The position numbers and the translations under genes were made by a program. 64,000 nucleotides of DNA from Branchiostoma floridae (taxonomy: Eukaryota; Chordata; Leptocardii; Amphioxiformes; Branchiostomatidae): NCBI RefSeq assembly GCF_000003815.2, contig NC_049988.1:10665521-10729520 (forward strand). Reading direction: 5' to 3'. The notes under the pieces were generated by a model. It had not been told where the DNA came from and did not search any database. It saw only the letters and a program-made list of their open reading frames with translations. Positions 2,612 through 50,291 of this stretch are shown piece after piece (the stretch's first letter is position 1; every line of letters begins with the position of its first letter).

Positions 2612-2663
2612 ATGGAAACGTCAGTTCTTGTTGGATTTATCCTGATGGGAACTTTAGGCGGGG
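2612..2663 (+). other. Gene A exon 1: signal peptide
   Basis: The ATG at 2612 opens a hydrophobic leader ([17 protein letters not shown]) and the exon stops at a GTAAGT donor in phase 1. The paralogue's first exon also ends in phase 1 after a leader. The first Met was chosen because it puts the hydrophobic core at the N-terminus. Confidence 0.8.
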
Positions 2664-5600
2664 GTAAGTGTTATTTCCACTTCAATACATATCGTTATAT
2701 ATTAAAGCATTTAAAACATAGCATTTCTTTAACATTGTACCATATCATCCTGAACGCTATTCTTCGCAAGGCTTTAAAATGAGAGGGTTTATCTTAATTG
2801 CAGAGCTCCATCATTGTTCTTAATGTCTAAAACATTCCATTGCTGCTGTCTGGAGGTCATAAATCGTTGTGCAATTGATTGTGTAACATTCAAGGACTTG
2901 TCTTACACGTGTTGTCATCAAAGTAGAAATCTTAAGACGGATAAGCTAAGAACTCTTAATCTCCGTGTGACAGTATCAGTTGTAGATTCATATACTAGAA
3001 ATATGCAAACTTCAGAAAAAATTGACACACTTCTGAATCATGAAGGGCGTCGTCCTACTTTCGTTGATTATATTGTGACCTTTCATTCGGACAAGAACCT
3101 GTTCAGGCCAACGAACGTATTCGGGCAACTTGGTCCGAACAGGATGTTTGTTGAAACGAAAAAAAAGGCTCATCAAGTGATATACAAACATATGCCATAG
3201 ACTTATCAATTTCTTTACCTTCTACGTGTTTTGTTGCCTATTTTATTGCACTTTTCGTTCCCGAAAGCTGCCCAGTCGGGGCCCAGTTTTTGTGACCGCA
3301 GCATTATCACACCCCATTTTTACTAGAGGCTGTGACTGCGCTGCGACTGCGCTGTGATCGCTAAGCGACCAAAGATCTGACAGATCGCTCAACGAGTTTC
3401 ATAGATGAAGAGCGATATCTTACGTTAGTTGTGTTTGGTTGTCTATAAATCAAACATTTATATCTGGCATCATATCCTAATGATCTAGGATTACAAAAAT
3501 CTAAGTTTGGGCGTTGTACGACCGTTCATCGATCGCCAACTCGGTGAAAGCTAGGTGCTTCAAGAGTCTTCCATTTTTTGTTCGGGTCTTATCTCTTTCC
3601 TAGACAAACCGTTGATCAAAAAGTGTTGTTTCGTATAAAATACTGCTTTACGCCTACCTAGGACACAATTACGGGATGAATAACCAACGCCAACCAAGCC
3701 GTGTAGGCATAAAACTCTTTCATTGTTATAGTGACTAATACTATTTCGTGAAGCTCGTAAAAGAGTATAGTCATCTGAGTAAATAGGCGTAGCCCAATCC
3801 ACCCAATATACGCACATTCCAATACCTTGATATCCATAATACAGAAACATATGTGCGACCTAAAATCGTTTACTCTTTCGATTGACGTTTGTCAGGACGA
3901 CACACGACAGAATACAAAATACACCATAGAATGGCGTTGGGTAGCGTAACTGTATTTACACATGTAGTTGAATGACCGCACAGATTGACTTTTGTACGCA
4001 TCAAAATTTAAAAAAAAGTATGGCTGAACACTGAGAAACATAAAATTGATTTTAATCAAGCGTAGCAAATCCATCATCCTTCTAATCCCATCTACACAAT
4101 GGTACACGTTGACCTTTGGGCAAGTAACAGTGACCTCCCAAGACAACTAGAAACATTGCTTGTTTTTGCCTTTGTTGATAATGATGTCCACATTCCCTCG
4201 CATCTTCCATACTCTAAACATATAAGACAAAATTTGCATTCATCTGTATATCTGCGAGAGAGAGTGAAGGTATTAGGTATGAAGATAGGAGGGAGAATTT
4301 CACGAACCAAGTCTTAATCACCTTGAATTTGGAGACAGATTTTAAAAGATATTCTATTTCAAAATTCAAAGTTCAAAATCGAGTGCTACTTGTAGGCACG
4401 TAGAAGAAACATGGAAGATATCCGTGTGACAAGGACAGTGATTGACAATATTGTGACAATATACTAACTCAAGTCCTAGTGTTGTCTACACCTAGACCAG
4501 TTCAGTTTTACGACCCTCCCCCGCCTTCCCTTAACTTGTGGTCTCTGTGATTTTCATAGGGAAACGGAAAAACGGAACTATTTTTCACTATGATAAGACA
4601 TGTGGTGCAAGTACTGCCGACAGAAAAACAATAATTAATTTGGTAGGAATAACACGTTATTATTTCAGCCATTAGTCTGATTGGAAGGGAAGGCACGTCC
4701 TCGCCTGTTTGAGGGTGATAAGTGCCGACATTCCTTTTGTTCGGTCAGGTCCACCATGAGGCGTGTCCAATTTACCTACCAGCTCTGTCATTTCCCGTCT
4801 TTTCATCCTTTGACCACTGACACACTGTACTGGTATGGTGCACACGACGTCTATCTAATGTGAACATTGTCATTAAAGACAGAAGGGTGAAAAAATGAAT
4901 ACTTCTCGTTGTAATAGATGACACATTGCCGAACCATTGCCAATTTTCAGCTGAAATGGTTTGTTGCAAATGCTGCCCCAGGGCCCCGTGTCAACGCCCT
5001 CAAACTTTGTCTTTGGTTGAGAAGAATAATTGAATCAAACCACAACCCCCTAATATCGGCTCATTGACCTATCTTAATACGACGTGGGAACGCATAGATT
5101 AGATATAATTTGAAACTCATGCAAAATATTTGCCGATAATCATTCCAATACTATAGGCAAGGTTAAGCAATTAATGAGAGGCAGCAGATCGCTTCAAGAT
5201 GGTCTCCATAAGGTCAATGATAACATAACATATGAAATTAAGTCCTTCAAGTCATGTGGGTACCTTACAGTCCTTCGATCTAGACGTACACGTGGCACAC
5301 ACTTCGTAATCTATTTAAACTGTGACACAATCAATTTTCGTGTAAGATGTTTCGTGTAAGATGTTGGGGGGGGGGGGGGGAGGTGGTGTCGGTCATGGAT
5401 GCTGTCTTTAGTGTGGAATATAATCCAAACGATCTCTCTATGACAGTCCTAGTTTCTTGACAATATTCTTGCACACAATTTGTCAAATGAAACATTGACT
5501 TGTCGTTCTTGGTTACCTATCATATGGTCTTGTTGCGGTACTTTTAACAAGGTCCTTGATTTGTCCAATTGACGAGAAACAGACTCTAGTTTTACTGTAG

Positions 5601-8600
5601 CATTTGTTAAAGGGCAGGACAATCTCAGAGTAATTGTTGCATTACATGCCTGAGATGTTCTTTTGTAAATTGCAACATTTCAAACACGGCCGTGTATATG
5701 TCAGTGACCTTTTCTCTCATTATAACAAGTACTGTGTATCACGCATGCATCTGTTGACAAAAGCTCATAAGTAATTAGTTTATAAGTCAGCTGATCCTTA
5801 GTTTTGTGCAGCTATTAGTTCACCACAGAGTAACATTGACACGTCATACTGGTATGAAACAATCGGATTTGTTACATATTCAAATTTTCCGTTTACAGTC
5901 AATATCTTTCCAGTTTTTGTTGCTGTGTTCTTCTTTTTCCTTCTCAACGGAATCACACATGCAATACTTGTTTGCTTCAAAATGTCTACATTGTACTGCC
6001 TATCACAAAATACCAAATTTGACTGGTTGTATCAAAAATAATTGCGCATGTTCCATTGCATGACAAAAGAGTTTCACAAAACATTCTTACTATCACCGCA
6101 AGTCAATGAATCAATTAAGTTGCATGAATGTTAATTTTTGGCGACGCCTCAGGGGTGAGCCTAACATTATAAAAGTATTAAGACTCTATAGACTTTCATT
6201 TTCAGTGACAAGTGTCTTTGTTTTTCTGTAAACGCTGACCTGCATTATATGTAACCTTAATTTATTCTAAAATGTATCTTTTATGATGATATTTTAGAAT
6301 GACACTGATATGATGATATTTTTAGAATGAAACTCTCGGGCGAACAAACGCCAACTATGTAATTTGGTTTAAAATTTCAGTTTATGTTTTAAACTGCGAA
6401 AACCAAAATAAAGCTCTCATCTCATTATAGTATTCTGTGCGGCTAGTTTGACAAAAGGCAAATTACTGGGAGGGAAACGTCCTGCTTTTTTTATGAAAAC
6501 GGTGCCTTTCTATTGTTTAATTTTCTTTTCTTTGTTTCAGTTGGGTTCTATACTGCAAATGCCCAGCAATTAGGGTTCTGCCATCAGGCCTTTAATGTGA
6601 GGTTTCTCGGACACTGTTACTGGTACGTACTATACATGATTAACATGGGATAGTTACATTATTTGAGATAGACCTTGAATTTGCTAGTAATCTAGTTCTT
6701 TCTGAATGTCAATTTCTAGTAACTGGCGAAAAACATTGCATGCTTTCTGACCGTTTACAAAATCATATCTAGTTGCTTGAGTAAATGCTATATAATATAT
6801 CCCTTTATCTGGATGTCTAACCTCCATCAAAGTATCGCTGATTCTAATTTTCAGCATTTTCTTGTAAACGTTTGAAGCTTGTTTGTTGGTAAGATCCACA
6901 TGTTTTCTCCGAATAGGAAAAACAGAGCAGACAGATGGGCCTCCGCGCAAAGTAACTGTGAAAGTATTCTCGCTGGAAGTCATCTCCTGACTGACATGAC
7001 AGAGGAGAAACACCAGGAGCTGTTGAATCAGTTTTCTGACTTAGACTCGTTCTGGCTCGGACTGAGCGACAGAGGAACGGAGGGAAGTTTCGTCTGGGAT
7101 GACCTTGCGGACACTCCGCTGGGGTCACCCACACAGTGGGACCCAAACACGCCGAACACAGGGGGGAGAGACTGTGTCGCCATCACGGGCAGTAGCTGGG
7201 TTCCCATGGACTGCAACACGCAGCTACCATACATCTGTGAAAAAGGTATGAGGATTGTCAAGGAATGAACAAGCCACTGCTTCTGTGACACATGCAGTTT
7301 CTAAGCTCGAAGTCCGTCTTCGAACCAAGCCTTTTCTTTTCTCAAACCGATAGGTATTGATAAATTTGAGAGTGTCTGAAAACATTCAATCTAAATCGTA
7401 GCCAGTTGATGTGCTTGCTTGCTTGTCTGTCTGTCTCTCCGGGTATAAGTCAAGAGTATTATGAATATTGAGTGAAAATATGTGGGATATAACTATGCCT
7501 TTTTTTAAATGAACTAACTAAGAAAATAGCAGCAATGCTACAGTTTGCATGAATGTAAAAAAATCACATCCCTAATGGTGTTTTTTATTCTTTGTTACCA
7601 GACGTTGACGAGTGCGCTGATAACCCCTGTGACGAGCATGCCGTCTGCACCAACACCAAGGGATCCTTCACCTGCACCTGCGACGACGGCTACACGGGCA
7701 ACGGTTTAACGTGCACAGGTATGGCAGATTTTCGCCAACACCTTTACTATATGTTGATCATCAAATCTTAACTGCCCACATGCTGTATATGAATTGTAAG
7801 TGATCTTACCTTAAATCCTATCCATTCCTTAACTAATCCTATAAATCCACCCTCCATAAGGGGTGATTCCTCCGGGACGACTGACCAGCTATACATCGAC
7901 TATGCCTCACTAACTCTAGAAGGGGTGTCGGTCTACAAACTGCTGCTGTACCTGAAAATGATTCTAATGTGCCCATTTCGCAATGTTAATTTGGAACTTC
8001 AATAACTACCAGCATCCCGACATTAGTACAAATCCATTAAATGGATCTTGAGTTACGAGTGTGAACATGCAAACATATATAACCCCCCCCCCCCCAAAAA
8101 AAAATACCTCTACCGGAGGTGTACCTCCTTCCCCGAGTTTACAACTGCTTTTGCCATTTTCCGACAGCCCGATGCAGCCAAAGCTGTAACGCCAGCGCGC
8201 TATGCCGCAGCACTGACGGGTCCAACTACGCCTGTGTTTGTAATGACGGCTTCGAGGGCGATGGAGTAACTTGCACTGGTAAGTAGAGATGGATACGATG
8301 TACCTGTACAGAACTGTTTTTTTCTTGTGGGGGACCGGTCCAGAAAAACTGGACCTAGAAAGTCAGTGGATCGGACTTTGGACCGATCAAGAAAATGGAT
8401 AGATTATACCGGTAGGCGTTCAAGTGTTTTGGGGCTTACTGGTCCAAGAAAGTAACAACGGCGAAGTAAAAGAGAGTTGATAGTCATTTGCAAGTCTCCA
8501 CAGTCAAACTTGTTTAGTGTTGCTTACATGGAGATAGGATTTTAAAATGCCACTGGAAGTCATAAACTATACCAAACAGATTCCGTTGTAGCGAAATTGG

Positions 8601-11600: not shown

Positions 11601-14600
11601 CCAGTTCCAGAATGTAGAACATGAGATAAAGATTTAAGAAATTACCAAAAAAATCGAGATATTTCACGGGATGTTTAAATTTTAGTTCTTATCATGATAC
11701 AACACTTGTAACTCAACACCGCACCCGTCCTATATGGGTACAAATGTAGTGCATGGTAAATGATGTTGAAGGCATTTCGTGTCGATATATGCACTACAAA
11801 CCTTTATGATCTTTACTCGACCGAAGCTTTTATTTTTATTTGTAGATGTCGATGAGTGTACAGGAACACCATGCCACGTGAACGCAGACTGTACGAATAC
11901 TATTGGTAATTACACCTGCACCTGTCATGTTGGCTACGAGGGCGATGGGAAGGTGTGCAATGATGCCGACGAGTGCAGCCGGACTCCCCGACCGTGCCAT
12001 GACCAAGCCGACTGCACCAACACCCCTGGTTCCTACACCTGCCGATGTAGGGTTCCTTACAGAGGAGACGGTATCCAATGCACCAGTAAGTGTTACAGTA
12101 CGGTTATTTTTACCCCCCCCCCCCCCCCCCCGAGAAGCGGAGATATTGTATTGTGATTACTTGCCATGGCGCATTTGTTTTGTTTGTTCGCTTTTCTTGG
12201 TGTGAATAAGGATATTGAACCTCATTGGTGTAAATATGACAGATTGACAGCATGTAATGCGGAAGCGGTTGCAAAGGATACATGGTGAACTGGAAGTATG
12301 ACTGGGCTCGGGTTTTAGAGTGATGTTTTCGAGAACTAAGATATGACTCATGGCTACACTCACACAGTAATGTCTGATACCAAGAGGTACCCACTTAGAG
12401 CTCATCACAACCTTGTTCAGTCAATCTTTTTTTATTTCATTTAAAGTTATTGCTAACTGACTGACATAGCCCTGATACTTGAATTATCTATACTTTAGAC
12501 GACCCGAACACGAACTGTGTGACCGGCGCAAACGGAGTGATAACCTGCACGTGTAAACCTGGCTACACTGGAAACGGTTACACCTGCACCGACGCTGACG
12601 AGTGCGCCGGAACACCAAGACGCTGCCATGAACAGGCGACCTGCACCAACACACTTGGGTCCTTCCGATGCACCTGTAACCAAGGATACCAGGGAGACGG
12701 ACTCACCTGTACAAGTAAGACAATCCCGTTCTTAACTTCGACAAAGAATAAAAAGTTTACAGGAAACATGTTGTTCAATGATAATAACTTTATTATTGTC
12801 AATACATCAAGTCTATTCATGGCTTCTCATTAAGAACACAGTAACGATGAAGAGAATATTTCTGAAGATTTAGATTATTCTTGAATGAATTGATAATTCA
12901 TAATGGTCATTATGAATAGTATATCGCAGACGCAAGTGGAATCGCATACTCCTACAGTGCATGCTTAAAACCAGCTGTAGACGTCTTAGGCAACTTACCG
13001 ATTGACATTCACGCAGTTCAACCATCTTAGCCGTATCATAATTATAACATAATATCATAATGGATGCAAAATTAACAGACAGGTTTGGAACAGATAGGTT
13101 AGAACGGATAACAACCGTATCATGAAACGCACTGTAGGATAATGATGAAGACAGCTGCTATTTATTCGATACTGTTGAATTTAATGTTAGCTTTTAGAAT
13201 AGAGTAAACACATGCTATATTGCACTGCACCAACTGCCCTCCCTTTTCATGTTACCTGCAATTAGCCCTCGGACAGGAATTTTCGATAAACTTAATTAAA
13301 ATCATGCCTAAATCAGTCCACACACGTGTTTATTCAAAATTTAATTCTTTCACCATTTTCGTTGCGCAGGTACTACTGGTGGGGTTTGTGCAGGTTTTGC
13401 AGGGGGCAGTCACGGCACACATACCTATCAAGTCGTGCTGGACGGCGTTACCCTGACAGACGAGCTGCGAGATACTAACACGGAACCCTACAGAAGTCTG
13501 ACAGCAGACATAGCAGTCTTGGTGAGCACTAGAGTCTTTCACAGCTAGTTTGGCAACAGAGAGTATGAGCTTACCTACACAGAGACATGCTGTATGCACA
13601 TTTGGGCGTAAAACAGCTGTAAATCAAGATAAAGCAAATATTTTTTATCGTTAACATTACTATATCTCTTTGAGGTTCTAACAGTTTGACAGTAGCTGGC
13701 ACTGCTATTAAAGTATAGAAATAGTGTATACTGTTTAATATGTAAAGATAGCGTTGTTTTTGTTTTATTGCAAAATTGCAGGTCAAATGTACAATTTGTG
13801 TGTGCGTGTGTGTGCATGTGCGTGTGTGTGAATGTGCGTACGCGCGCGCGTGTGTGTGTGTGTGTGTTGCTAGCATAACTTGAGAGAAGTTGTTGGTATA
13901 TGTTAATCAGATTTGGTAGGCAAGTACGTATAGCTAGGTCAGGAAAACAACGATCAAGTTTAGTATTGTACCCCCCTAGCGGGTTCCTACGGTACTGCAG
14001 CTGAACTTTCCTTCTTACTAATGTGATGTCTTCGTCGCCAGGTGAATAACGTGATGAAGACGACACAGCATGCAGGCAAAGTCAAGAACGTCTTGGTCAC
14101 ACGGCTGAAGGAGGTGGAAGGAGAAGTAGTGGCTGTGTATGACGCCTGTCTGGAAAACGCCAACGCCGCACAGGGGCTGGAAATACAGAACAATATACAA
14201 GCGGCCAGCAGCGTGGACAACACGCTTGGTATCAACCTGAAAACAGCCTGCTATCTGGAGTCAGACGACAGTAATTGTCCGACATCGGCCTCCGTCAGTG
14301 GAGGAGGATCAGGTAATACAACAAAGTGCACTATATCTGTTGGAGTCGTGTACTTTGCATTGTAAATAGTTTGTGTCATACATTGCATTCTGTAAGGTCT
14401 TTGAAAATTCGGTCATTCATTCACAAGTATTAAATAGAAATGTTTGAAACACAAAATACAAACTTCTTGGCAAACTAATTCACCAGAAGTATTGGTAGTA
14501 GAAGTAGTAGTACTAGTACTAGTATTACTTATCTAGTAGTAGTATTACTAGTAGTAATAGCAGTAGTATTAGAGGTAGTAGCAGTAGTAGTAGTTATAAT

Positions 14601-17072
14601 AGTAGTAGCAGTAGCAGTAGTAGCAGTGATAGTAATGTATGAATAGTAATAGTAGTAGTAAAGGTAATGATAACCGAGTAAACATTCATCCTCTGTGTTT
14701 TCTCCAGGACTGAACCCCAGTACAGCTATTGCATTGTGGGTTTCCCTGGCCCTGCTTCTTCTATTGTTGCTGCTCGCATTGTGCTGTGCTTGGAGACACC
14801 ACAGAGGGAAAAAGTGAGTGCACACATTGTTTGCAAGTATAATAAAATGATAAGGTTAGTGATATTCAAATAGAGCCATACATATCATACCAACATTATC
14901 ATCATCTGTCGTCCCTGGCGGGCGGGGTGAGGCGTTGCACAACGTCTCTTCACAGCACACGGTCTTTCATGGCTGCTCCCAAGTCCTCAGTCCAAGTTCT
15001 CCTCCATACCAACAACAGCTAGATGTAATCTATGAATCCAAAAGAGCTTAATTCAATAGACGACACATTATTCAAAAGAGCTGCATTTCAATATATCTAA
15101 CATAAATTTGATTGCATAATGTTGTCCGTGATTTAGGAAGTTTTTGCTCTGTAAAAGACGAATCGGTACCTTCAATTTTAGCAGTACCTTTATCATCAAG
15201 TGTGCTTGTCACTGTTGTCATGATTTTCTGACTCTCATATTACGTTATATTTACCTCCTGTTGTACGATACCTGTTTTACAGGTACTATGATGACAAGTC
15301 AGAGTATGACTACCCTCCCTCAATCCACGGATCAGTCTACCACGTAAGTATATCCCACATACATGTTCTCATAAAAAAATGCATAAGCAAACCCAGCAAG
15401 TGATGTTAAATAATATTTTGAAAAAAAAAAAAAAACAGTCCATCAGTTGGAGTCCATAGCCAGTATTTGGTCTCTATTCCATATATCAAAGAGCAACAAC
15501 TAGTAAACGGTATAGCAAGCAAAACCACAAAAGAATTAATATAATACACATGTTTTAAGAACTTGTTTGACAAAACATGTGTGATAGCGTAACTGTTAAC
15601 TTCCTATCTCTGTTACAGAGTCCTCAAAGCCACGTCTATGATTACCCAACAGCCACTGCGCCTACAGTCGTGCCAATTGTGAGTTCAAGAAGCTTTGTAA
15701 CACGCTCCACACCCAGACCACCTCTTGCACCACCTACACAATACTATTAACTATCCACATTATATTGCATGAGTGGTAAGTTCTACTGCTCCTGAACCAT
15801 GTATCGTTACCTCCGTGAAAATGGAAGTACTGTTTTCGATTTGTTTCGTGTTTTTTGTCCTGTTGGTGGGCAGGGTTTTTCCCCACAAACCCCTGCCCGA
15901 CGTTGGTCGAAATATAGGAAAATGGTGTAAAAGAATTGGATCGTTTTTTGTATGAAAAGTTCTAATTCTTCGCCAGGGTCCAAAGTCGCACAGAAAAAAA
16001 ATGCACAGAAAGTAACGAGAAATTCAAAATAACGGATAACGAAATTCACACAAAAGTCTCGGAGGCATACAGTATTGTTGTTGTTGAAAGCTAGCGTGTC
16101 ACACGTATGATATGGCATATCTTCATTGGACGCATGGTTATTTTCATTTCCAAACTGTTCCACTCTTACCGGTCCTTTGGAATGAGATTGTCCATGGAGC
16201 CAGTTAAAATCCAAGCGGGTATGTAAGGGCCATGATGTTGATTTCATTTGGGTCTATTTTCCTTTTCTTCTTATCTAATTTTGCAGATGAAATGTGTGAC
16301 TTATTGAGATATGCAATATCTAAAATTTCAGCCTTTTATAGTAACGAGAATGGTTCAGGAAAAGTCGTTTAAAGTCTTTTGAGTAACTAACATTCATTAG
16401 ACACATACATTATAAAGTTTACTTATCTATACACCCTTCACAACATCTGTAGACTAATGTCCAACTTTATGCGCACCCTAAGACTAATACCATTCTAGAA
16501 ACAACATCAAACTAATCTCTCTTCTTGCTATGCATTTCTGAAATATGACTCGATCAGTACTGACTATTGTTTTTAGGTCTGTATGTTTGATTAGTTAATG
16601 TGCTTCATAAGTATTGTTTCATTTGTACAGTAACAACGATATGTTTGTTTGTTTGTTTGTTTGTTTAAAAGCTTTAATGATGACAATATGGAGATATTAT
16701 TCTACATTGTCTAAATAACGTATGTCAAACCTGCAGGCACCACCGATGCCCGAGTATCTCGCCACGCGTCGCCCGTCCAGTCTGCGGAGGAAAAGCATGT
16801 CGACATCGGTACCACCATATTCTACACCGCGAAGACTATCTAACGCATCAACAGCGTATACCAACCCTCGAAAACCCTCTCTTACCGGGTCAGCATATTC
16901 CCGCAATCGACTCTCGTCTATGCCATCCACATACATCCCGAACGCACCCCTGCCAACTCTCATGGATGATGACATCGACTCTTCTGAAGGCCGCGAGGCT
17001 CAATCACTTTCCTTCTTCACTGATGAGGACCAAAATGTGCACAGCATGGAAGTCAGCCTCCAGATGAAGTAA
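2612..17072 (+). CDS. CTLD-EGF(14)-SEA-TM type I receptor-like protein (gene A)
   Basis: Predicted 17-exon gene. Exons: 2612-2663, 6541-6622, 6917-7245, 7602-7718, 8168-8278, 8824-9090, 9492-9659, 10397-10771, 11240-11479, 11846-12085, 12499-12714, 13370-13521, 14042-14312, 14708-14813, 15283-15343, 15619-15678, 16737-17072. Joined, these stay in frame for about 1060 residues. Order: signal peptide, C-type lectin domain, 14 EGF modules (mostly calcium-binding, DxDEC), SEA-like domain, one transmembrane helix, cytoplasmic tail. Every junction has GT/AG signals and compatible phase. EGF exons are all phase 1-1, which allows shuffling without frame loss. Reading through the donor after 15678 gives a shorter form ending at 15750. 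The likely role is cell-surface adhesion or recognition, inferred from domains only. A paralogue lies on the minus strand at 24.4-44.3 kb. No orthologue with this exact architecture is recognised. Confidence 0.85.
2664..6540 (+). other. Gene A intron 1
   Basis: A 3.9 kb intron without recognisable exons. It includes a region rich in GCGACTGC-like and GATCGCT-like words (about 3290-3530) that resembles decayed inverted-repeat elements elsewhere in the window, and a run of about 15 G near 5366-5380. Confidence 0.6.
6541..7245 (+). other. Gene A C-type lectin domain (exons 2-3)
   Basis: Exon 2 (6541-6622) encodes the start of the fold, including the GHCY strand; exon 3 (6917-7245) encodes the rest. 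The trace includes [14 protein letters not shown] (the WIGL-like core), then QWDPNTPN and DCVAI, and finally SSWVPMDC with a terminal YICEK. Cysteines fit the long-form CTLD. The loop has no EPN or QPD motif, and the usual WND is replaced by WVP, so classical calcium-dependent sugar binding is doubtful. The intron between exons 2 and 3 falls in the GHCYW codons, exactly as in the paralogue. Confidence 0.88.
7602..12714 (+). other. Gene A EGF-module array (14 modules in 8 exons)
   Basis: Exons carry 1, 1, 2, 1, 3, 2, 2 and 2 modules in order. Most begin DxDEC and contain the CxCxxGYxGDG pattern of calcium-binding EGF domains. Many also have the C-x-[DN]-x4-[FY]-x-C-x-C asparagine hydroxylation consensus. 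The module at 9492-9659 is longer because of an acidic and histidine-bearing insert (residues HEEGSEHD). The last exon starts with a half-type module (NDPNTNC) that lacks the DxDEC start. A chain of cbEGF modules normally forms a stiff calcium-dependent rod, which here would hold the lectin head away from the membrane. Confidence 0.88.
13370..14312 (+). other. Gene A SEA-like domain (2 exons)
   Basis: The two exons encode a strand-like start ([17 protein letters not shown]), a helix, and a second part with [18 protein letters not shown]. This order resembles SEA domains, with the intron in the middle. The usual autoproteolysis site G-SVVV is replaced by GEVVA, so self-cleavage is not expected. 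Exon 13370-13521 is 152 bases and exon 14042-14312 is 271 bases. The paralogue has equivalents of 143 and 274 bases with the same phases. SEA assignment rests on pattern and position next to the membrane. Confidence 0.65.
13790..14007 (+). repeat. Dispersed repeat copy with (GT)n head
   Basis: A GT/GC-rich microsatellite (about 13797-13867) runs into CATAACTTGAGAGAAGTTGT and ends with CTACGGTACTGCAGC. The same head, middle and end recur at 48305-48475 and, inverted, at 26870-27020 and 27430-27960. It lies in the intron that splits the SEA domain. Confidence 0.6.
14490..14665 (+). repeat. Degenerate (AGT)n trinucleotide repeat
   Basis: Dozens of AGT units with single changes, in the intron between the SEA and transmembrane exons of gene A. 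It translates to Thr- or Ser-rich open frames that are not genes. Confidence 0.85.
14708..14813 (+). other. Gene A transmembrane exon
   Basis: This 106-base exon encodes about 20 hydrophobic residues ([20 protein letters not shown]) followed by a basic stop-transfer stretch (WRHHRGKK). It is the only such segment after the leader, which fits a type I membrane protein. The paralogue has an exon of the same length. Confidence 0.88.
15283..17072 (+). other. Gene A cytoplasmic tail exons with alternative ends
   Basis: Exons 15283-15343 and 15619-15678 encode a tyrosine-rich tail with [16 protein letters not shown] and HVYDYP motifs. Then there are two options. Using the GTGAGT donor after 15678 joins exon 16737-17072, which adds 111 residues rich in Ser, Pro and Arg ([10 protein letters not shown]) with an acidic end ([12 protein letters not shown]). 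Ignoring that donor gives 24 more residues and a stop at 15748-15750, ending PPTQYY. The paralogue ends in the same way (STYY), so the short form is probably real. Transcripts are needed to tell how much each is used. Confidence 0.7.
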
Positions 17073-20778: not shown

Positions 20779-21486
20779 ATGCCTGTGCCGCAGAAGATAT
20801 ACAACATGTCTCAATGTTTCGTCGCCTATATCATGACATTTGCAGTACTATGGAGCACTACAGATGGTAAGATAACCTTTCTCTACTTTTTATCACCTGA
20901 AATTTACTACTTAGATTGATAAACACCAACAACTACGGGTGCAATTTATACTAGCTGTTCTATATCAGACAGTAGGATTGCTCAACAACTTCATATGATA
21001 AAATCTACACTGTGAACGTATAGATATAGGTTTTCATGTGTACGTTTGCTGATATATACGATTCTTTCTCAAACAGGTATGCCGACAAACAAAGCACAGT
21101 GCCCAGAAGGCTACACGGACGGACAGTTTGCAGAGCTGTGCTTCAGACACGTGAGAACTCCCCTGCCCTACGGCAAGGCCGCGGCAGAATGTGATTCGGA
21201 CGGCGGCAAACTTATCACAGACAAGAACCGGGCCAAACACAACTATCTCCTCAAAAGAGACTTCGCTATGAGTTATTGGGTCGGGCTAGACGACTTGGAG
21301 GAAGAAAATAGCTTCGTGTGGAACGATGGAGAAGTACTGACTGACTTCGCCCCCTTCTCGAAAACGTACCCAAACCAACAGAACAATGACTGTGTAGTTT
21401 TGTCCAGACTTACGGACATGGAGTGGCTTCCATCTGACTGTCACCAAAACTTTGAGTTTGTCTGCCAAAAGGAACTTCTTTGGTAG
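20779..21486 (+). CDS. Secreted single-CTLD C-type lectin-like protein
   Basis: Two exons, 20779-20866 and 21077-21486, give 165 residues. The first encodes a hydrophobic leader (CFVAYIMTFAVLW). The second holds a whole CTLD in one exon: CPEGY, LCFRHV, the WVGLDDLEEENSFVW core, DCVVL, WLPSDC and a final FVCQK. A second in-frame Met at residue 10 would give a tighter signal peptide. The WND position reads WLP, and no EPN or QPD is seen, so sugar binding is uncertain. A possible polyadenylation signal AATAAA lies at 21889-21894. The gene sits between the two convergent CTLD-EGF genes, but its one-exon CTLD differs from theirs, so it is probably not a recent copy of them. Confidence 0.82.
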
Positions 21487-25926: not shown

Positions 25927-28900
25927 CTGGAGTAGAATTTTAAACGTTATTAATAACATAAAATAAACATGCTTCTTGTTTATTTTCAGTTTCTTAAACG
26001 TTTATAATTTGTATTCACGGTTTTCTATAGAGCAAGACTCGGTAGATTCCCTGATATAAGTCGTTTCGTTATGATATATAAGCAGTCGCTACCTTCTGTA
26101 CGTGAAGCTGTGTAACGCCGAAGGACAGTAATTGTTATTCTAAAATCCCGCATTCTCAACATTCACAAGAACGAAGAAGAGGACAACCTTGTATATATTG
26201 CACTTGACTACGGCACTTTTACCAATATATTAATGTTTTGTTTTTAACCTGCAATTGGTTCGGTTGGGTAAAAATGTACAATTAATGTCTTCATTTATCC
26301 ATTCATTCATTCATTCATTCATTCATTCACCCATTCACCCATTCACTCATTCACTCATTCACTCATTCACTCATACATACTGTAGTGTAGTTACCTGATT
26401 CCCCAGTTTGTTTGAGTGACTGGCTTGTCGGACAGTTGTCGCTGTTTGATTCCAGGAAACAGACGGTCTGCAGGTTGACCCCTAGCGTGTTGTCGACACT
26501 GTTCGCCGCCCTCAGCTCGTTCTGGATGTCCAGTCCGTGCACGGCGTTGACGTTCTCCAGACACACGTCGTACACGGCCACTACCTCGTTTTCAACGATC
26601 TTCAGCTCCTTGACCACGACGCTCTGGACTTTGCTTCCATGCTGTGTTGTCCTGATGGATGGTTCCAGCTGCCGAATCGTAAATGTATGTCCATTATGAA
26701 GGCATTCCACCCCAGAAAGTAGTGTTGTATTCCAATAGATAATGTATCAATGCGTACATAACTAGAGTTCCACGAAACACATACCTTCGCCAGACAATCA
26801 AGGGTTGTTATGGAGAATGCCTTTATCAATGACTTAAAGGTTTTATAGCTTCTCAAGTTATGTTATCCGCACTCACACACACTCACACAAAGCCCGCTGC
26901 AGTACCGACGAAAGATACCGAGCGAACCATTTTCAAACTCAACCTTTGTTTCTGCGACCGCTACTCAATACCAAGTATCATGAAGATCCATCAATCAGTT
27001 CTCCAGTTATACTGCTGACCTACATAAAGACTCACCTAACACTATGGCTTAAGCCTTAACCAAAAGTTTAATCTTCTTGGCGAAGGTAATGAAAAGGCCA
27101 CAAACCACCAAGCTTCCACTTTTCCCTGCCACATAAGCATCACCAAAATAAGGGGGAAAACACCCCTTCACATCAAAATGGAGAAACCCCTTCCCATAGT
27201 GCACAAACAAACAACATGGCGCTTGCAAAGTGAGAACTAATAAACAATGTGTTAGCAACAATAACATCTATGTTTTGCTGACACAAATATGTCATGACCT
27301 CCACAAGCCTGGAGCACAGATGTAGTTACCGACACTGAGCACTGATTGTCCAGAAAAGAGGTCGATTGAAGGATTTACACATTCTTCTAATTATCATGTA
27401 AATTAAGCCCCGATTTGCATACAATACATTTCAGGATTTTAATCATTACCTAAGGTATGTACATACCAAAAATAATGCAAATCCACCAACCCCTCCTAGA
27501 CTTATACTCTACCAAAGATAATGACAAAATCGCCCGGTGCAGTACAAAACAAGCCGCCAGGAGGCCAAAATTTGCACTACTTAATCCCTGCCCAGAGACG
27601 TATCCACTACCCAAAAAGCGTAAACCTGACACTTCAGGATAACTATAACGCCAACTTCGACACTCCGCTGCAGTACCGCAACTTGTCGCCAGGATGCCCA
27701 TTATCGAACTTGATCGTCGTTTTCCAAACCCCTAAATAACTACCGAATATAATGCAAAACGATCCACAGCGTCAAAAGTTATCTTGTACGCAAATACACA
27801 CACACACACACTCACCCCGCTGCACTCACGACAGAAAGCGCCAACAGTACCATTTTCGTACAAAACCTCGCTATACGCAACCGCAACTCAAATACCAAAT
27901 ATCGCGACATTCCATCCACAGCTACCAAAGTTATTTGAGATTGACCTATATACTGGGACACAAAAAAATTTTCTAACCATAACATGACCTTCTTGGCGAA
28001 GGTAATCAGTCAACTTTTTAAAAATTCCATTTGTGGTGAATTACGCAGTGTGTGCTTTGTGAAACAATATGGCACTCACTAATCAAGGACTAATCAATAA
28101 TCAAGGACTAATCAATATGTACTTACCAGCAATTCTATCTCAGTTTTCTTCGCCCTGTACTCAGCTGATGTAGCATCCTGTAGTCCCTGCGTCAGTGTCA
28201 CATTATCCAGTACAACCTGATATCTCTGTTTGCTCAGGTTGTCACCAGTACAAGCAACACTTGCATCACCTAGCAAGGGAAAATAAACGCGATGGTTTGC
28301 ATCTGATACGTAGAAAGGAGACGATAAAACTGAAGGACGATTTGTGATGGTATGTGATTGGCAATAAAGTAATAAAAGATATGCAAGGGTTTTGTATTCT
28401 CCTCTATGTACATGTTTCTATAAAAGCCAAGCATTTGGTGTCATAATCATTCTAAGATTTTCTGTTTGAATTTTCGTTACTAGGGCGAAAGATCCTAACT
28501 GAATTTGATAGTCAATAGCAGAGCAGTGTTATGTAAATGCTTTTAGATTTGACATGAGACGTCATGAAGAGATTCTCTTTGTTACTGTGGAAAGTTATCA
28601 TGAAAGACAGAGCAAGTGGTGATGGCCAATACATGTACATCTATGTCTAAAGCTTCTGCGTTGTGTCCACTGAACGTGAAAAAGACAATCCCTGCTAGAA
28701 ACGAAGTTTCATTGACATACTGTTGCAGATGATTCCGTCTCCTTGGTATCCTTGGTTACAGGTACATTGGAAGGATCCAGGTGTGTTTGCGCAGCTTGCT
28801 TGAAGATGACAACGCCTTGGTGTTTCTGCACACTCATTAACGTCCGTGCACCTGAACCCCGCCCCGACGAACCCTGCCTTGCAGCTGCAGACCTCAACAC

Positions 28901-31900: not shown

Positions 31901-34900
31901 GCTGCAGATGTAACCATTTCCTATGAAACCGCTATTGCAAGTGCAGATTGTCACTCCGTTTGAGGCGATGACACAATTTGTGTTGGGGTCGTCTGAAATA
32001 CATGTTTGTGTGGATTGAGAACGTAACAGCATGACGTTATCAAAATTTAGGGACACGTAGAATTTGTACCATCTCCTTTGATGCTCTTACAAAATCGGTT
32101 GATCCGATGCATTGTGGCTGATAAGCCTGCTTATGCACTCTTTACTCACTCACTAGTCACATTTACGAGTAGTGAGAGGTGTGCTTGAAGCAGCTACATT
32201 GTATTATGTACTATGTCACTACCCTGCTCTCAGAGGAATGACCTGTTTTTTTACTACATTTGTATATAGTGATAGTACCGAAGTCTAGTTTTTATATAAC
32301 TGTGTAAAATTCTTTGAGTAACTCCTTTTTGGTGTACTATGTATTACTGCTTATAGTTTGTATATGACTGTGTAAAATATTTTTGTATCTACATAATTTG
32401 TAACATTTGTAAATTGGATGTAATTCAGTGCAGAAAGAAAGCTGACACTGCGATTTCCCAATAAACACCATCTATCCATAGTATCTATCTAGCCCCTGAG
32501 CGAAGAGACAGTGAAAGGCGCAAGCTTTGCAAGCGTCAACTGTAACAGGTCATACAAAGACCAGTAGTTCTTGGACAACTCTTGGACATTGCCATAGCAA
32601 TCAAAGCCAGCAATCAACGAGGGCTCATTGTACCTGTACCCCTTACAACCGGTCCCCATATGACCATTGGATTATGCAAAGCCGTCAGCTTCTCATTCTG
32701 CGGTGTTTCACACCTCACGAAGCAAGTTACTCAATAGGCAACAACCATTACAACTGCCAGAAGCACTGAATAAGCCGTGCTTTTCCGTTGAGCATGCAGA
32801 ACATGCTAAGCCGCAAGTGAAGCAATGCCCTGAAACCTTCCACAATCTGATCAGCATCGGCAATGCCAAAATACGTGCAGCACAGGAGGGCCATCAAAAG
32901 ATGAAGCTATAACCCATTGGATGTGCGTAGAGGAGGACCACCTAACAAGGATACCTACCATTACAACTATCATCTACCCACCTCTTGCATTACGTGTTTT
33001 TGCCCTAAACTAAATGGAGACCTTGACGACAATTGAGTTATTGTGCAGAATAGACCTTAAGAACTTGGCATTCCTTTAAAGACCGTCTTTGGCAGACAGG
33101 CGTCTTCCCCACCTCATTGGCACCTAGACTACAATCGGCAAATTGAGTCATCGACGCTGTACTCACTGGTGCACTGAACACCGTTGCCCCGGTAAGGACT
33201 GTTACAGCGGCAGGTATAGGAACCTAATGTGTTGGTGCAGGTTGCTTGCTGATGGCAAGGTGTTGGGTTTTGAGCACACTCGTTCACGTCACTACAGGTG
33301 ACGCCATCTCCGGTGAAACCAGGTGGGCACGAACCTTCCATGTCAAACATTGATATGTTTAAAGTGGAAGAACAATCATATCAATAGATCTTATCTACTA
33401 TAGCTAGCAACACTAGGTGTGTCATAGATGTGATTTTGATTTTGAAAACTTAGATAAAGCAATGTTAGATAGGGTTCTATGCAGTGAAATATGTACCAGC
33501 CTGGTCCCGACCTATGGTAGATAATGTATGTGTGTATGTAGATGTGGTCCAAGAGAAGATCTTTACTTACTGGTACAATGAGTGCCGTTTCCTTCGTACG
33601 GACTGTTGCAGCTGCAAGTATATGAGCCTTGCGTGTTTTGGCAGGTTGCTTGTTGATGACAAGGTGTCGGATTTCCGCTGCATTCGTCGATGTCGGTGCA
33701 GGCGTTGCCATCAGTTCGGTACCCGCTTCTGCACGTGCAGGTGAAGGAACCATCGGTGTTGGTGCAGGTTCTATCAGCGCTACAGGGCGATGGTGTTCTT
33801 TGACACTCGTCCTCGTCTGTAGTAACGTAGGAGCATAGGACAAATGTAAGAATCAATATTCAATATAATGTAAAAGAAAGCAAAGTCGGGTGTCAAAATA
33901 CCTTTCATGAACATTTCAGTTCATAACAACGCACACTACACAGTAATGTCGTGTGATCTGTTATTGTGTAGTCCGTTGTTCATATGCCATGTGTGCAAAA
34001 AGTCCAATCCAAACAGTTTTTGTATGGCGGAAAATGTACAGCGAGAGACCTAGTTTCAGATTATGGTGCCTGTGACGTCAAGCGACGACCACTTCAAATT
34101 AGGGGTTTCCGCAGGCCAACAATAAATGGATCAAAACCTTGTTGTTTCTTTACTGGAGCTGAAGGTCTATTACCTTGAATTGTCTCATCAGCATAAGATG
34201 TCACCTAAATGTTCCAAGGAAAACTTCTCAAATAGACTAGAATCATGTAGTATAAAAGTGGAGTCTCTATGTTGGTGTTACACGTTTCTATATTATTAAA
34301 CATCACCCTATCAAATGCCTTGCATATAGAAAACGAATATAAGCAACGTTTCTGTCATCAACAATGTAAGGGCGTGGTCACATAGGTCGCACGATCATCG
34401 TACGATCGCTAACTTCGGGCATTTTATGCGGCAGCTATGCATGTTCTACAAAGTCTAACTGCCCTGCTACACAAAAGGCTGTATCGGATCATTTTCTGTG
34501 GTTGGTCCTGTCACAGCCAGCAAACCCCTATGGCATCAAAATCGTACAACAATCGCACAACCTATGAGGCTGCGCCCTTATAACCCTGTCACATTATTCA
34601 CGATCACCGGTCTTGCCACGTACCAGCGCAAGTACGACCGTCTCCCACGTAGCCTGTGCGGCAGGTGCAGCTAAACGTCCCCACTTGGTTCCCGCAGTCC
34701 GCATTCTGGTGACAGTTGTGGGTACCTGCGGCGCACTCATCCACATCCTTACAGGTAGAGTCGACGTACTCGTACCCAGCCGTGCACGCACATGTGTATG
34801 TACCCGGGGCGTTTATACACGTGGATGGAGCCTGGCACGGTGAAGGCGAAGCCGCACACTCGTCAGTGTCTAAACACACAGAAAAAATGATAAAGTTTAT

Positions 34901-37900: not shown

Positions 37901-40900
37901 TGGAAGTGGTGTAAGTTTGGGTCCCTACAAGCATGCCCTTGAACTGCAGGGGACATTTGGTCACAATCTTTTACACCCCTATCTGCTTGGTTTTTAGTCC
38001 CGTCAAGATCCTGCTGGCCCTATGCTAGACAGGGCTCATGTCACATTAGCAATTGAACATTCCTCTAGTTTATCATGTGTTTGGGCAATGGAGTGTGCCA
38101 TTCATCGACATAACAGTTGTGTGTCTGTGTTTTTATGGTCAGCAAAACTGAAGTCTTATAATGCATAAAGAGTACAATTTAAAAGGACTAGACATTTCAT
38201 GGATGTATTAGGTCAACGAACTCTTGATGACCGATGACTACATAAATCAAACACCAACCAAAAAAGGGAGGTCTCATATAAAGAGGTTACGGTCAAACCT
38301 CCTTGGTTTCACTCACCAGTGCAATTTATCCCGTCGCCTTCGAAGCCATCGTTACAGGTACATTCGTACGTAGACCCGCCTGTGTTCCGGCATTCTGCGT
38401 TGTCTCCACAGGTCTGACCACAACGTTCTGTTTTGAGATGAAATAATTCTTTTTCATATCTCTTATCGATGAATTCTTTTCTACCTATGGTACACAATCT
38501 GTGATACTTTCCTCAGTAAAAAGACACACAACCAACAACTAAACACAAAAAACGGTCTAAAATTGTGTCTACAAGAGAAGAAATGCGATAACACCCTTAT
38601 ATTAGACAATTATTGAAATAATCGTTCGAAACCAAGTTGTCACAACTTTTCCAACTATCACGTTTCAGTCCTAAAATACTATTCAGGACTAAATAAACAC
38701 GCCAATACAACGAAACACTCACCAAAAAAGGCAGCAAAAGTAAAACCTTTTTGGCGAAGGTGAGAAGAATTTGCCTACCTGTGCAGGTGAATCCGTCGCC
38801 GGTGTAGCCCTCTTTGCAGGTGCACGTGAAGGAACCGTCGGTGTTGGTACAGGTGGCATGGGCGTTGCATGGCGTATCCTGACATTCATCAACGTCTGCA
38901 AACGACAGAGAACAATGTAGCACAAGATCATATTCTCTTACACATCGTTGCAAACTTAAGTACTATTATCTGCACGCTCCCGAGAAGAGAGACTGACACT
39001 GAGCCTGCTCCCTGAGATCTGACAGCGGGAGTGAGGCAGAGGCCACGTGTAGCCATAGACCCGGGGAGCAGACACACACTCACACTCACTCAGTCCCATA
39101 GCTCAGGTGGCCGTAGGGGCAGTAAGACTGTTCACAGAGCAGACGCATCTAATCAAATACTTGAATCTCCGGGGGCCAAAAGATTATCCATATTCTAACT
39201 ACCCTTGTATTGTATTTGAGGTCCAATTAAGTGATATTAACTCCATGAAGGACCTTCACCTCCTACTGGGGTACTCTGTTTGGCAAGGTTGTGTGTTCGC
39301 AGCTATAAATCAAGATCTATTCATTATTAATGAATTTCTTTGTATTTTTGGTACTATGGTTCTTAGTGATATCTCCAGGTTGCATGCCGATTCTTGGCAC
39401 CGCAATGGTACTTTCATGTGATGTAAAATTTCAAAAACAATACCCCCATGTTGAAGGTATTTTGGTACAATCCGCCATTTCGATGTGGTTGGCTGGTAAT
39501 CATATTCAGTGACAACGTAATATCCTATGCGTATGTTGTATGAACACCAATTACCAACACTGCTTTATTGCAATTGAATCATCGATCTTACCCTGTGAGC
39601 AAATGAATGCCATCCTCGTGCTGCAGTCGGTAGGGACCCACATGTAGCCTGAGGCGCGCGTCATGGCGACGCAGTCCTTCGCAGCATCGTTCGGCGAGCT
39701 GGGATCCCACTGTGTCGGCGTACCCAGCGGGGTGTTCTCCGGGTTTCCCCAGTAGAACTCTCCTTCTATTCCCCGATCGTTTAAGCCGAGCCAGAACGAG
39801 TCTATATCCGAGAACCGTGTGGCCAGCTCGTCGTGTATTTCCTGTGTCATGTCTGTCAGGAGGTGGCTTGCAGCAAAAATGCTTTCGCAGTCCGCCCTTG
39901 CGGAGAGCCAGGCTTTCAGCTGGGTAGGACGTTTGTTAACCCTGTAGAAATTACACAAAGTCTTGCTTGTTATTGTCTCTAGATGTTGGAATCAGTTGGT
40001 ATGTTTGTTCCTTTGTTAGTTAGATACATAGATATTGCAGAAGGGCAGCATTTAAGGTGGAAGTGGGGTTAGGCTAACGTCGACCGTCACATTTCAAAAC
40101 AGGGACCTGTTCGGGCTGTTTGAAACGACTATTCTCTTTACGTCTTGTGTAGTTTTGTGTCTTTTATATCCTACTTTTCGTTCTCGAAAGTTGCTCAACT
40201 GGGCCCTTGTGTTGAAGTATGACGTCGGTATAATAGGGTACTCGGGGAATTAAAAAGCTTAAGTATGGTTTGGTTTGTTTTTCTTGATTTCGGCACAATT
40301 AATCGTCACTATAAGACACTACTCATAGATATAACATGCACAGTGATAAGGTCGTAAGTAACATATGTATGGAAAGATTTTCCAACTAGAATTGTTCTAT
40401 CAAAACTGTATGGAAAAGTATTTTCAGATGACGAAATCCGTACTGGAACAAACTACGTCCCACATGCCTGATTGATTGACGGATGGATGTATGGATACAA
40501 AGAATTATAAGAAATACTTACCGAAAACAATGCCCAAGAAATCTTATAGGAAAACCTCCATGACAGCTCCCATATGTTTGGGCATTGGCTATGTGAATCC
40601 CAGCTGAATCGATAAGAAAAATACAGTGTTGGTTGAAAGACAGAACTTTATCATAGAAATAGAATCTATAACGAGAAAGAGTAAAATGATGTAATCTCTA
40701 CATATAGTAGTAAAGAACCTTAGTAGTGTAACCACTAGAAAAAAAGAGAACCGGGCCTACGCTAACAAAACTTTCAGCTTTTTTACACATTGATTTATTT
40801 TTATTGATAATGTATCTTCTTGTATTAAGTCTTCGATTTATACTTGTTCATGCGTTTGCATTTATATCAAGCGGAGGCGTCGATATACGTTTTAAAACTT

Positions 40901-43900: not shown

Positions 43901-44345
43901 GTTCAGGTTTCTAGTCAATATTCATGTAGCAAAATAGCGAATGTCCGTTATACTCTGTTCATTAGTTCTATAGCCAAAACGTTCTCATGTATGGGGCATG
44001 AGATACAGATTGTTCAATTGCCTTTTGCATATATATATTAGCAAGAAAAGGACAACTATGAGAAATCGCCGCTCTCCTGTTTGAAATACTGCCAAGTTTA
44101 CACGTGGTCTACTTGAACCGTAGTGACTAGTGCGACAAGCCGTCATATGTTATAAAAAACCTTACGTTTGTAACAAATGTAAAAGGTTCAGGAATAGGTC
44201 TGACCATGTCAAGCAAGTGGCGACCCCATAAAAACAAATCTATATCGTAACTGCGATCTAAGTCATCGGTGCGGAATGTCGACTTACCGGCGGCAAAACT
44301 CAATCCCAACACGAACCCGATCAGAGAAGCCCGCAAAATTCCCAT
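24384..44345 (-). CDS. CTLD-EGF(~22)-SEA-TM type I receptor-like protein (gene B)
   Basis: Predicted 20-exon paralogue of gene A. Exons, in transcript order: 44345-44288, 40603-40522, 39941-39592, 38895-38779, 38427-38317, 37584-37315, 36676-36551, 35815-35453, 34869-34624, 33816-33571, 33334-33167, 31992-31777, 30869-30651, 29579-29361, 28936-28721, 28269-28127, 26668-26395, 25926-25821, 25287-25215, 24488-24384. Joined, they stay in frame for about 1235 residues. Domain order matches gene A, with three or four extra copies of the two-module EGF exon before the SEA domain. Exons of 82, 117, 111, 216 and 106 bases have the same length in both genes. No long alternative tail exon was found. 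A surface recognition or adhesion role is inferred from domains. Confidence 0.83.
24930..25090. repeat. Possible dispersed repeat fragment
   Basis: The segment with TTTAGCTCATTGAGCTAA followed by AAGGGCTCATTAAAA has a short palindrome and looks like a repeat end rather than unique intron. No second copy was found in the window. Confidence 0.25.
26279..26378. repeat. (ATTC)n microsatellite
   Basis: Tandem CATT/CACT tetranucleotides directly downstream of gene B's second SEA exon, about 15 bases from its donor. Confidence 0.9.
26860..27020 (-). repeat. Dispersed repeat copy, inverted
   Basis: Contains ACACACTCACACAAAGCCCG, CTGCAGTACCG and ATCATGAAGATCCATCAA, then CTCCAGTTATACTGCTGAC. These are the reverse of words in the copies at 13790 and 48305. 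It lies in the intron between the SEA exons of gene B. Confidence 0.55.
27430..27975 (-). repeat. Two or three further copies of the same dispersed repeat, decayed
   Basis: Words close to GAAGATCCATCAA recur near 27475, 27755 and 27905, and CCGCTGCAGTACCG near 27665. A (CA)n stretch at about 27795 leads into CTCACCCCGCTGCA, matching the head of the copy at 26860. Confidence 0.45.
30110..30335 (-). mobile_element. tRNA-derived SINE, old copy
   Basis: On the minus strand, from about 30330, an A-box-like TGGCTAGGCTAGTGG and a B-box-like GGTTCATGTTA are 35-45 bases apart. After them come TTGTGATGGAAAGGCA and AAATGGGTATCTGAT, typical of the body of tRNA-derived invertebrate SINEs. It lies in an intron of gene B. 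Confidence 0.55.
32240..32490 (+). mobile_element. Possible LINE 3' end fragment
   Basis: AT-rich sequence with GGATGTAATTCAGTGCAGAA, AAGCTGACACTGCGATTTCC and AATAAACACCATC, then a simple CTAT-like tail. This looks like the 3' end of a CR1/L2-type retroposon. No coding part is present. Confidence 0.35.
34367..34580. mobile_element. Imperfect palindromic MITE
   Basis: The ends, TAAGGGCGTGGTCACATAGG and its inverted relative (CCTATGAGGCTGCGCCCTTA), share most positions. The similarity runs on inward (TCGCACGAT / ATCGCAC and GTACGAT / ATCGTAC). It has no coding capacity and lies in the intron before the EGF exon at 34624. Confidence 0.6.
35301..35408 (+). repeat. 54-base tandem duplication
   Basis: Two nearly identical 54-base units start at 35301 and 35355 (ACGCACAAGAGGTTCAGAAT in both, with one base changed later). 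The array stops about 45 bases before the donor of the three-module EGF exon of gene B. Confidence 0.9.
39592..40603 (-). other. Gene B C-type lectin domain (exons 2-3)
   Basis: Exon 40603-40522 encodes IRFLGHCF, matching VRFLGHCY in gene A. Exon 39941-39592 encodes the rest: [44 protein letters not shown] and a final FICSQ. As in gene A, the EPN/QPD and WND sugar-binding motifs are absent. The intron position inside the GHC(Y/F)x codons is the same. Confidence 0.87.
41471..41706. mobile_element. Decayed TA-flanked MITE
   Basis: Ends CCCCTGTCACATT and AATGTAAAAGGGG are imperfect inverted copies flanked by TA. Inside, CCTCGTCCGATCGATG resembles the arm of the element at 708-903. It lies in intron 1 of gene B. 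Confidence 0.45.
43605..43745. mobile_element. SINE fragment
   Basis: CACCTCCCCGAACGCAGGAC followed by CGAAAGACGG resembles CTCTCCCCGAACACGGGACC then CGAAGGCGG in the SINE at 45850-46165. Only the body is seen here, no tRNA-like head. Confidence 0.4.
44288..44345 (-). other. Gene B exon 1: signal peptide
   Basis: Reading leftwards from 44345, the exon encodes [19 protein letters not shown] and ends at a GTAAGT donor in phase 1. An upstream in-frame extension is rich in charged residues, so the inner Met gives the better leader. Intron 1 is about 3.7 kb, similar to the 3.9 kb intron 1 of gene A. Confidence 0.7.
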
Positions 44346-50191: not shown

Positions 50192-50291
50192 NNNNNNNNN
50201 NNNNNNNNNNNNNNNNNNNNNNNNNNNNNNNNNNNNNNNNNNNNNNNNNNNNNNNNNNNNNNNNNNNNNNNNNNNNNNNNNNNNNNNNNNN
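50192..50291. other. Assembly gap (100 N)
   Basis: Exactly 100 unknown bases, the conventional size for a gap of unknown length. It cuts the OATP Kazal exon. A polypurine tract lies just to its left, a likely cause of assembly failure. Confidence 0.98.

Follow-up and report, generated by a model that had tools for sequence, protein, structure and literature searches.

Two tail-to-tail genes with a shared plan

A 64,000-nucleotide stretch of the Branchiostoma floridae genome (RefSeq assembly GCF_000003815.2, contig NC_049988.1, positions 10,665,521 to 10,729,520, hereafter the window) holds two predicted genes in opposite orientation, A and B, that encode receptor-like proteins with a C-type lectin-like domain (CTLD), an EGF array, and a probable SEA domain. 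Three further genes (C, D, and E), which carry CTLDs or a SEA domain of their own, lie beside or between them (Table 1). The genome comprises 513 Mb in 431 contigs, and the flanks examined were the 90 kb before the window and the 50 kb after it.

Gene A (+ strand, 2612-17072) was spliced by hand into 17 exons, with a coding length of 3182 nt counted plus the final stop base and a predicted protein of 1060 amino acids (aa). Gene B (- strand, 44345-24384) has 19 exons, 3540 nt including the stop, and a predicted protein of 1179 aa. Both models were assembled manually from open frames and splice sites and are predictions; every internal junction is GT-AG and neither model has an in-frame stop. 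Their least certain parts are the first exons of A and B, the last exon of A, and a degraded EGF exon of B. The two proteins have a common domain order: signal peptide, CTLD, EGF array, SEA, transmembrane (TM) helix, and cytoplasmic tail. Hydropathy (19-residue mean; A and B, respectively) peaked at 2.98 and 2.89 in the TM helix and at 1.74 and 1.89 at the N-terminus, with other segments at or below 1.2, and a signal peptide and single TM helix, judged by hydropathy only, correspond to a type I receptor layout.

A preliminary description of this DNA, made from the letters alone, had proposed that A and B are paralogues sharing domain order, intron phases, and five exon lengths, and the spliced models bore this out. 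The lengths 82, 117, 111, 216, and 106 bp are present in both models, phases agree at every homologous intron, and BLASTP gave an alignment of A with B spanning 1161 columns at 44.7% (E = 0.0), a likeness well above chance. Exon number differs, as B has three additional exons of 216/219 bp and A one additional tail exon. Phylogenies also kept the two CTLDs together, A and B being sisters with support of 96/91 in a tree of 41 rows and 89/87 in a tree of 23 rows. The larger tree was built after nine of 50 rows had been dropped (five that duplicated A, B, the third CTLD of gene C, E, and a gene 2.4 Mb away; three partial rows; and one near-identical row), and the smaller was drawn from the same 50.

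DNA matches between A and B were confined to exons, save for one 36-base match in introns. Across the four of six domain blocks with a computable synonymous divergence (dS), dS was 0.99-1.71, nonsynonymous divergence (dN) 0.26-0.35, and dN/dS 0.17-0.35. Exon 8, which encodes three EGFs in each gene (10397-10771 and 35453-35815), stood apart with 84% DNA identity and a dS of 0.40, compared with 0.79-1.68 in the other exon pairs for which a value was obtained (several had none). Gene conversion between the inverted copies is a likely cause of this similarity. As read from these comparisons, the two paralogues of this tail-to-tail pair are old and have diverged, and both copies are under constraint, the age following from a dS near saturation in many exons. 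The inverted duplication originally proposed fits the orientation and homology of the genes; because only exons align, a tandem duplication followed by inversion fits equally well.

Table 1. Predicted exons and neighboring genes, in window positions (negative values lie before the window); exon phases are given as start-end.
Feature	Position	Strand	Description
Gene A exon 1	2612..2663	+	52 bp, 0-1; start codon, signal peptide, phase 1 donor; hydrophobic N-terminus
Gene A exon 2	6541..6622	+	82 bp, 1-2; CTLD begins
Gene A exon 3	6917..7245	+	329 bp, 2-1; CTLD core; Pfam Lectin_C 2.6e-15
Gene A exons 4-7	7602-7718, 8168-8278, 8824-9090, 9492-9659	+	117, 111, 267, 168 bp; all 1-1; EGF
Gene A exons 8-11	10397-10771, 11240-11479, 11846-12085, 12499-12714	+	375, 240, 240, 216 bp; all 1-1; EGF
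Gene A exon 12	13370..13521	+	152 bp, 1-0; SEA first part
Gene A exon 13	14042..14312	+	271 bp, 0-1; SEA remainder; Pfam SEA 29.9 bits, exons 12-13 joined
Gene A exon 14	14708..14813	+	106 bp, 1-2; TM helix
Gene A exons 15-17	15283-15343, 15619-15678, 16737-17072	+	61 bp (2-0), 60 bp (0-0), last exon; tail, stop
Gene E	20806..21486	+	exons 20806-20866 and 21077-21486; 156 aa (471 nt incl. stop); CTLD, Lectin_C 3e-15
Gene B exons 18-19	25215-25287, 24384-24488	-	73 bp (2-0), 105 bp last exon; short tail, stop
Gene B exon 17	25821..25926	-	106 bp, 1-2; TM helix
Gene B exon 16	26395..26668	-	274 bp, 0-1; SEA remainder; Pfam SEA 21.7 bits, under cut-off
Gene B exon 15	28127..28269	-	143 bp, 1-0; SEA first part
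Gene B exons 11-14	31777-31992, 30651-30869, 29361-29579, 28721-28936	-	216, 219, 219, 216 bp; all 1-1; EGF
Degraded EGF exon copy (216 bp)	33167..33332 (about)	-	first half gone; excluded from B model
Gene B exons 8-10	35453-35815, 34624-34869, 33571-33816	-	363, 246, 246 bp; all 1-1; EGF
Gene B exons 4-7	38779-38895, 38317-38427, 37315-37584, 36551-36676	-	117, 111, 270, 126 bp; all 1-1; EGF
Gene B exon 3	39592..39941	-	350 bp, 2-1; CTLD core; Pfam Lectin_C 1.8e-12, isolated domain
Gene B exon 2	40522..40603	-	82 bp, 1-2; CTLD begins
Gene B exon 1	44288..44345	-	58 bp, 0-1; start codon, signal peptide
Gene C	-8355 to -1595 (within C10:10655521-10665520)	same strand as A	three CTLDs, 18 six-Cys EGFs, TM
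Gene D	about -38600 to -13900		19 TSP1-like units, SEA, TM

Domains of the encoded proteins

The N-terminal domain of A was placed in the CTLD superfamily by its Pfam Lectin_C score (57.5 bits; cut-off, 22.6), and the isolated CTLD of B also exceeded that cut-off (48.4 bits); neither Lectin_C nor SEA appeared when full-length B was scanned at E ≤ 0.001. The EPN or QPD and WND motifs of the calcium and sugar site are required for classical lectin action but not for the fold. They are absent from the CTLDs of A, B, and E and from all three of gene C (C1-C3), and A and B carry TPN/SPN and WVP at the corresponding positions. Comparison was made with 30 other lancelet CTLD rows, selected either for their Pfam score or because they resembled A. 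In the main lancelet clade EPN, QPD, QPN, or EPD occurred in 22 of 22 rows and a W-x-D pattern in 20 of 22, and all eight rows outside this clade lacked both motifs. Recognition through lectin action is weakened by these absences, and with the sugar-site motifs missing, a protein would be a likelier ligand than a calcium-bound sugar. When the CTLD and first EGF of A were compared with PDB, the best matches were LY75, PLA2R, and mannose receptors (scores summed over several CTLDs), and no group XIV lectin chain was among the best 60 of 180 matches.

Numerous Pfam EGF models matched the stalks. Six-cysteine EGF patterns numbered 13 in A and 16 in B, and the calcium-type EGF start [DNE]x[DNE]EC occurred 12 and 15 times, respectively, which suggests that the stalk may form a stiff rod. 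By reading, four-cysteine half-EGFs lead the 216/219-bp exons, once in A and four times in B. Each such exon consists of a half-EGF and a full EGF, and B has four copies of the unit (28721-31992, - strand) as well as the degraded one, against a single copy in A (12499-12714, + strand); the most alike of these exons are B11 and B12, with a dS of 0.51. Pfam matches to ADGRF3_N coincided with the half-EGF and were set aside.

The SEA domain of A scored 29.9 bits in isolation (Pfam cut-off, 26.4) and that of gene D 35.5 bits. The second SEA exon of B is 59% identical to that of A, and the SEA assignment of B is based on this likeness and on a joint A/B/D profile, since B falls under the Pfam cut-off. 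The joint profile gave four PDB matches, among them 2e7v and 8vis (E about 0.025) and 1ivz (E 1.1), which we take to be SEA domains; A SEA alone gave 11 matches to E 10 (best, 0.23), none of which we recognized as SEA. In self-cleaving SEA domains, the loop that joins beta2 to beta3 reads GSVVV or GSIVA (PMC6954182). GSVVV is replaced by GEVVA in A, NEVVA in B, and GQVVA in D (EGEVVA, ENEVVA, and NGQVVA in context). The SEA regions of A and B contain four shared cysteines each, potentially paired in disulfides, and that of D contains none. The missing cleavage motif and the four cysteines suggest that the SEA domain of A and B would hold rather than break.

The tail of A comprises 158 aa from RHHRGKK and has 12 tyrosines and two copies of YDYP, which presumably resemble Crk/Nck SH2 sites. 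The tail of B comprises 65 aa from RNHKKS and has six tyrosines and no YDYP, and matches at E ≤ 0.5 included no counterpart in B of the last tail exon of A. It is possible that similar ectodomains signal differently through these two tails.

Neighboring genes and the probable source of the modules

Gene C contains two CTLDs split mid-domain and a third in a single exon, with its 18 EGFs in one open exon and a TM exon of 118 bp (phase 1-2); no SEA was seen in the frames examined. In gene D, the SEA is spread over two exons with a phase-0 intron and is followed by a TM exon of 106 bp with phases 1-2, as in A and B; placing all 19 TSP1-like units in one gene is an assumption. The tail frame of gene D appeared by eye to be rich in tyrosine and proline, and a filter for a tyrosine-rich next tail exon returned none in C or D. 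Gene E, whose first exon came from a signal-peptide scan, is short, probably secreted, and flanked on either side by the A and B tails.

Genome searches connected A and B to these neighbors. The second SEA exon of A matched three places only at E ≤ 1, namely A, B, and D (four of four candidates scored), and the reciprocal search with the SEA exon of D returned the identical three (three of three scored). The match in D lies about 30 kb upstream, and by our own arithmetic the chance of one random extra match falling within 30 kb is about 1e-4. For the CTLD core of A (117 listed matches; 150 of 648 candidates scored), B was nearest, followed by a CTLD located 5 kb before the window in gene C, a place at a distance of 2.4 Mb, two incomplete matches on a different contig, and gene E. 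The third CTLD of C (150 of 766 candidates scored) matched a place 2.4 Mb away best; E, C1, C2, A, and B came next, ahead of all others. In the 30 kb surrounding that distant CTLD, on the same contig, the other A/B exons were unmatched at E ≤ 0.01. Pfam SEA was found at eight places genome-wide. A, B, and D, whose SEA is divided between exons, were not included, and none of the eight was within 50 kb of a listed CTLD (the CTLD lists being partial).

What the preliminary description missed is that A and B do not form an isolated family: the CTLD that most resembles that of A once B is set aside, and the single further SEA match, are in neighboring genes, and this points to local module exchange. 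Exon shuffling is described as rampant in lancelets, with domain pairs gained at >10 per million years and a bias toward 1-1 exon phases, in the sections of PMC4284660 that treat domain gain, so that one more new combination would be expected. The A/B plan was probably assembled in the lancelet lineage by local shuffling of 1-1-phase modules and then duplicated. What would be unusual is that the likely module donors still adjoin the genes.

Several other features were observed around the locus. Long frames resembling a LINE (long interspersed nuclear element) retrotransposon, identified by eye, lie upstream of gene D (-48777 to -45145). Beyond B there are a Kazal-like piece at about 50200 (- strand), under the Pfam cut-off, and an OATP match (1.4e-13) at 72399-72851 (- strand), which together suggest an organic anion transporter gene. 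A run of 100 N bases occupies 50192-50291.

Proposed role, alternatives, and relation to known systems

We favor, with moderate confidence, the reading that A and B are an old tail-to-tail pair of locally assembled, non-shedding adhesion or recognition receptors for protein ligands. The N-terminal CTLD would bind a protein, and would do so elsewhere than at the classical calcium-sugar site. The EGF stalk, with 13 modules in A and 16 in B and stiffened by calcium, would keep it away from the cell. A SEA domain with four conserved cysteines and no self-cleavage motif would anchor the stalk at the membrane. The tail would relay or tether, with 12 tyrosines and two YDYP copies in A and a short form lacking YDYP in B. 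The modules were probably shuffled among neighbors, a CTLD-EGF-TM gene standing next door and a SEA-TM gene two genes away, with duplication afterward.

A number of results weigh against parts of this reading. With regard to local origin, a clade of the A, B, and C CTLDs was neither recovered nor rejected (approximately unbiased test, p-AU 0.368), the same clade with E added was mildly rejected (p-AU 0.0433), and the 41-row tree weakly joined A and B to two CTLDs on contig C4 (81/75). The tests with C and E make a local origin less firm for the CTLD than for SEA. Moreover, the CTLD introns of A and B differ from those of gene C, and the structures of genes C and D were themselves worked out by eye from open frames. 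An intron inside SEA seems to be widespread in this genome and was dropped as evidence of local origin, since six of the eight Pfam SEA places break at about the same point (model position 32-39). With regard to SEA itself, A scored 26.2 bits in the full-length scan and B 21.7 bits in isolation, both under the Pfam cut-off, and the top PDB match of the A/B/D profile was a viral fusion protein (E 0.0049), which is taken for chance. For the ligand, the EPN/QPD-type triplet was kept in 22 of the 30 other lancelet rows and absent also from eight. Structure prediction of the CTLD exon reached a predicted local distance difference test (pLDDT) value of 40 and was discarded. For age and constraint, dS was not computable in two of the six domain blocks or in several single exons.

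An ancestral, pre-lancelet architecture, from which C and D arose later through loss of SEA or of CTLD-EGF, would account for the symmetrical sequence relations and for the near-saturated A-B dS. This alternative is unlikely, if a serious one; the distance of all eight Pfam SEA places from listed CTLDs and the rate of domain-pair gain quoted above from PMC4284660 argue against it, though not decisively. A more elaborate version of local assembly, a "receptor workshop" of neighboring genes trading 1-1 modules (CTLD, EGF, SEA, TM, and TSP1 arrays) in which A and B, alike in ectodomain and unlike in tail, are a paired signaling and non-signaling set, part gene-converted, is doubtful; its conversion element draws on the dS of exon 8 set against the other exon pairs. 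Ordinary pattern-recognition lectins, binding microbial sugars in a calcium-dependent way, would suit a genome with a very large expansion of CTLD genes (1565 candidates at first look, of which 150 were scored) and in which C-type lectin (CTL) genes are named, in the pertinent text of PMC4284660, among receptors with Toll-like receptor (TLR)-like evolutionary patterns. Such a role is improbable for A and B given that EPN/QPD and WND are missing from them, C1-C3, and E while the main lancelet clade keeps the triplet throughout. It is very improbable that the models fuse separate adjacent genes, one CTLD-EGF and the other SEA-TM. Split genes do exist locally, since D reads as a SEA-TM gene and C as a CTLD-EGF-TM gene without SEA. 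However, two old copies on opposite strands keep order and phases across the joint (1-1 into 1-0), and there is no TM helix or stop between EGF and SEA, although a signal-peptide exon before SEA was not sought.

We give scarcely any credence to A and B being lancelet orthologues of the group XIV lectins that acquired SEA. The order of CTLD, EGFs, TM, and tail is the same, lancelet CTLD-like proteins served as outgroups to group XIV in a published tree (PMC9167495, in the part dealing with phylogeny), and forcing a clade of A, B, CD93, and thrombomodulin (THBD) cost 4.96 log units, so that rejection was borderline (p-AU 0.0575). In both of our trees, however, the CTLDs of CD93 (8a59) and thrombomodulin (7t4r), which represented the group with CLEC14A and CD248 left out, clustered at 100/98 apart from A and B. 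A genome search with the CD93 CTLD at E ≤ 1, itself weak (best E 0.006), found 17 lancelet places, and A and B were not among these. Neither a sushi-like nor a mucin-like region was found in A or B (Pfam listed no Sushi match at E ≤ 0.001), the genes have 17 and 19 exons, and the best PDB matches were those to LY75, PLA2R, and mannose receptors. In what PMC9471012 states on the matter, authentic CD248 was not found in amphioxus. Trees, genome search, intron content, and domain content thus place A and B outside group XIV, the tree rejection being borderline. The interpretation first proposed is partly supported: the paralogue pair is real, and its plan resembles that of group XIV without evidence of shared descent.

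The pair is a small, self-contained example of a receptor plan that resembles an important family in humans and whose modules are still present in adjacent genes, so that convergence via exon shuffling becomes testable instead of asserted. A search limited to open-licence papers turned up no description of a CTLD-EGF-SEA protein. Group XIV proteins have a sushi-like region (thrombomodulin without a proper one), one to six EGFs, and a mucin-like region; their human genes are intronless except for one small CD93 intron, and genes of the forkhead, ovo, and fos families accompany them in conserved synteny (PMC9167495). Like them, A and B are type I proteins with an N-terminal CTLD, EGFs, one TM helix, and a tail, and the canonical sugar motifs are absent also from CD93 and thrombomodulin (the two compared). 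In contrast to them, A and B have SEA in place of the mucin-like region, directly before the TM helix, as well as 17 and 19 exons, and their CTLD leads straight into the DVDEC of EGF 1. Domain order alone is thus insufficient to call lancelet CTLD-EGF-TM genes relatives of thrombomodulin or CD93.

Selectins (group IV) likewise have an N-terminal CTLD directly followed by an EGF and then a TM helix, which is the junction seen in A and B, but they carry one EGF and then sushi repeats and lack SEA. EGF-SEA membrane mucins and IMPG1/2 combine EGF and SEA near the membrane with mucin-like regions and have no CTLD. The SEA of IMPG undergoes proteolysis, as reported in PMC9478142, whereas the SEA of A and B lacks GSVVV. 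The closest likenesses are local. Gene C resembles A and B in its CTLDs, EGF array, TM exon phase (1-2), and strand (that of A), and differs in having three CTLDs, 18 EGFs in one exon, and no SEA seen. Gene D has the same phase-0 SEA intron, the same 106-bp, 1-2 TM exon, and the one SEA match that the genome offers beyond A and B, with 19 TSP1-like units instead of the CTLD-EGF portion of A and B.

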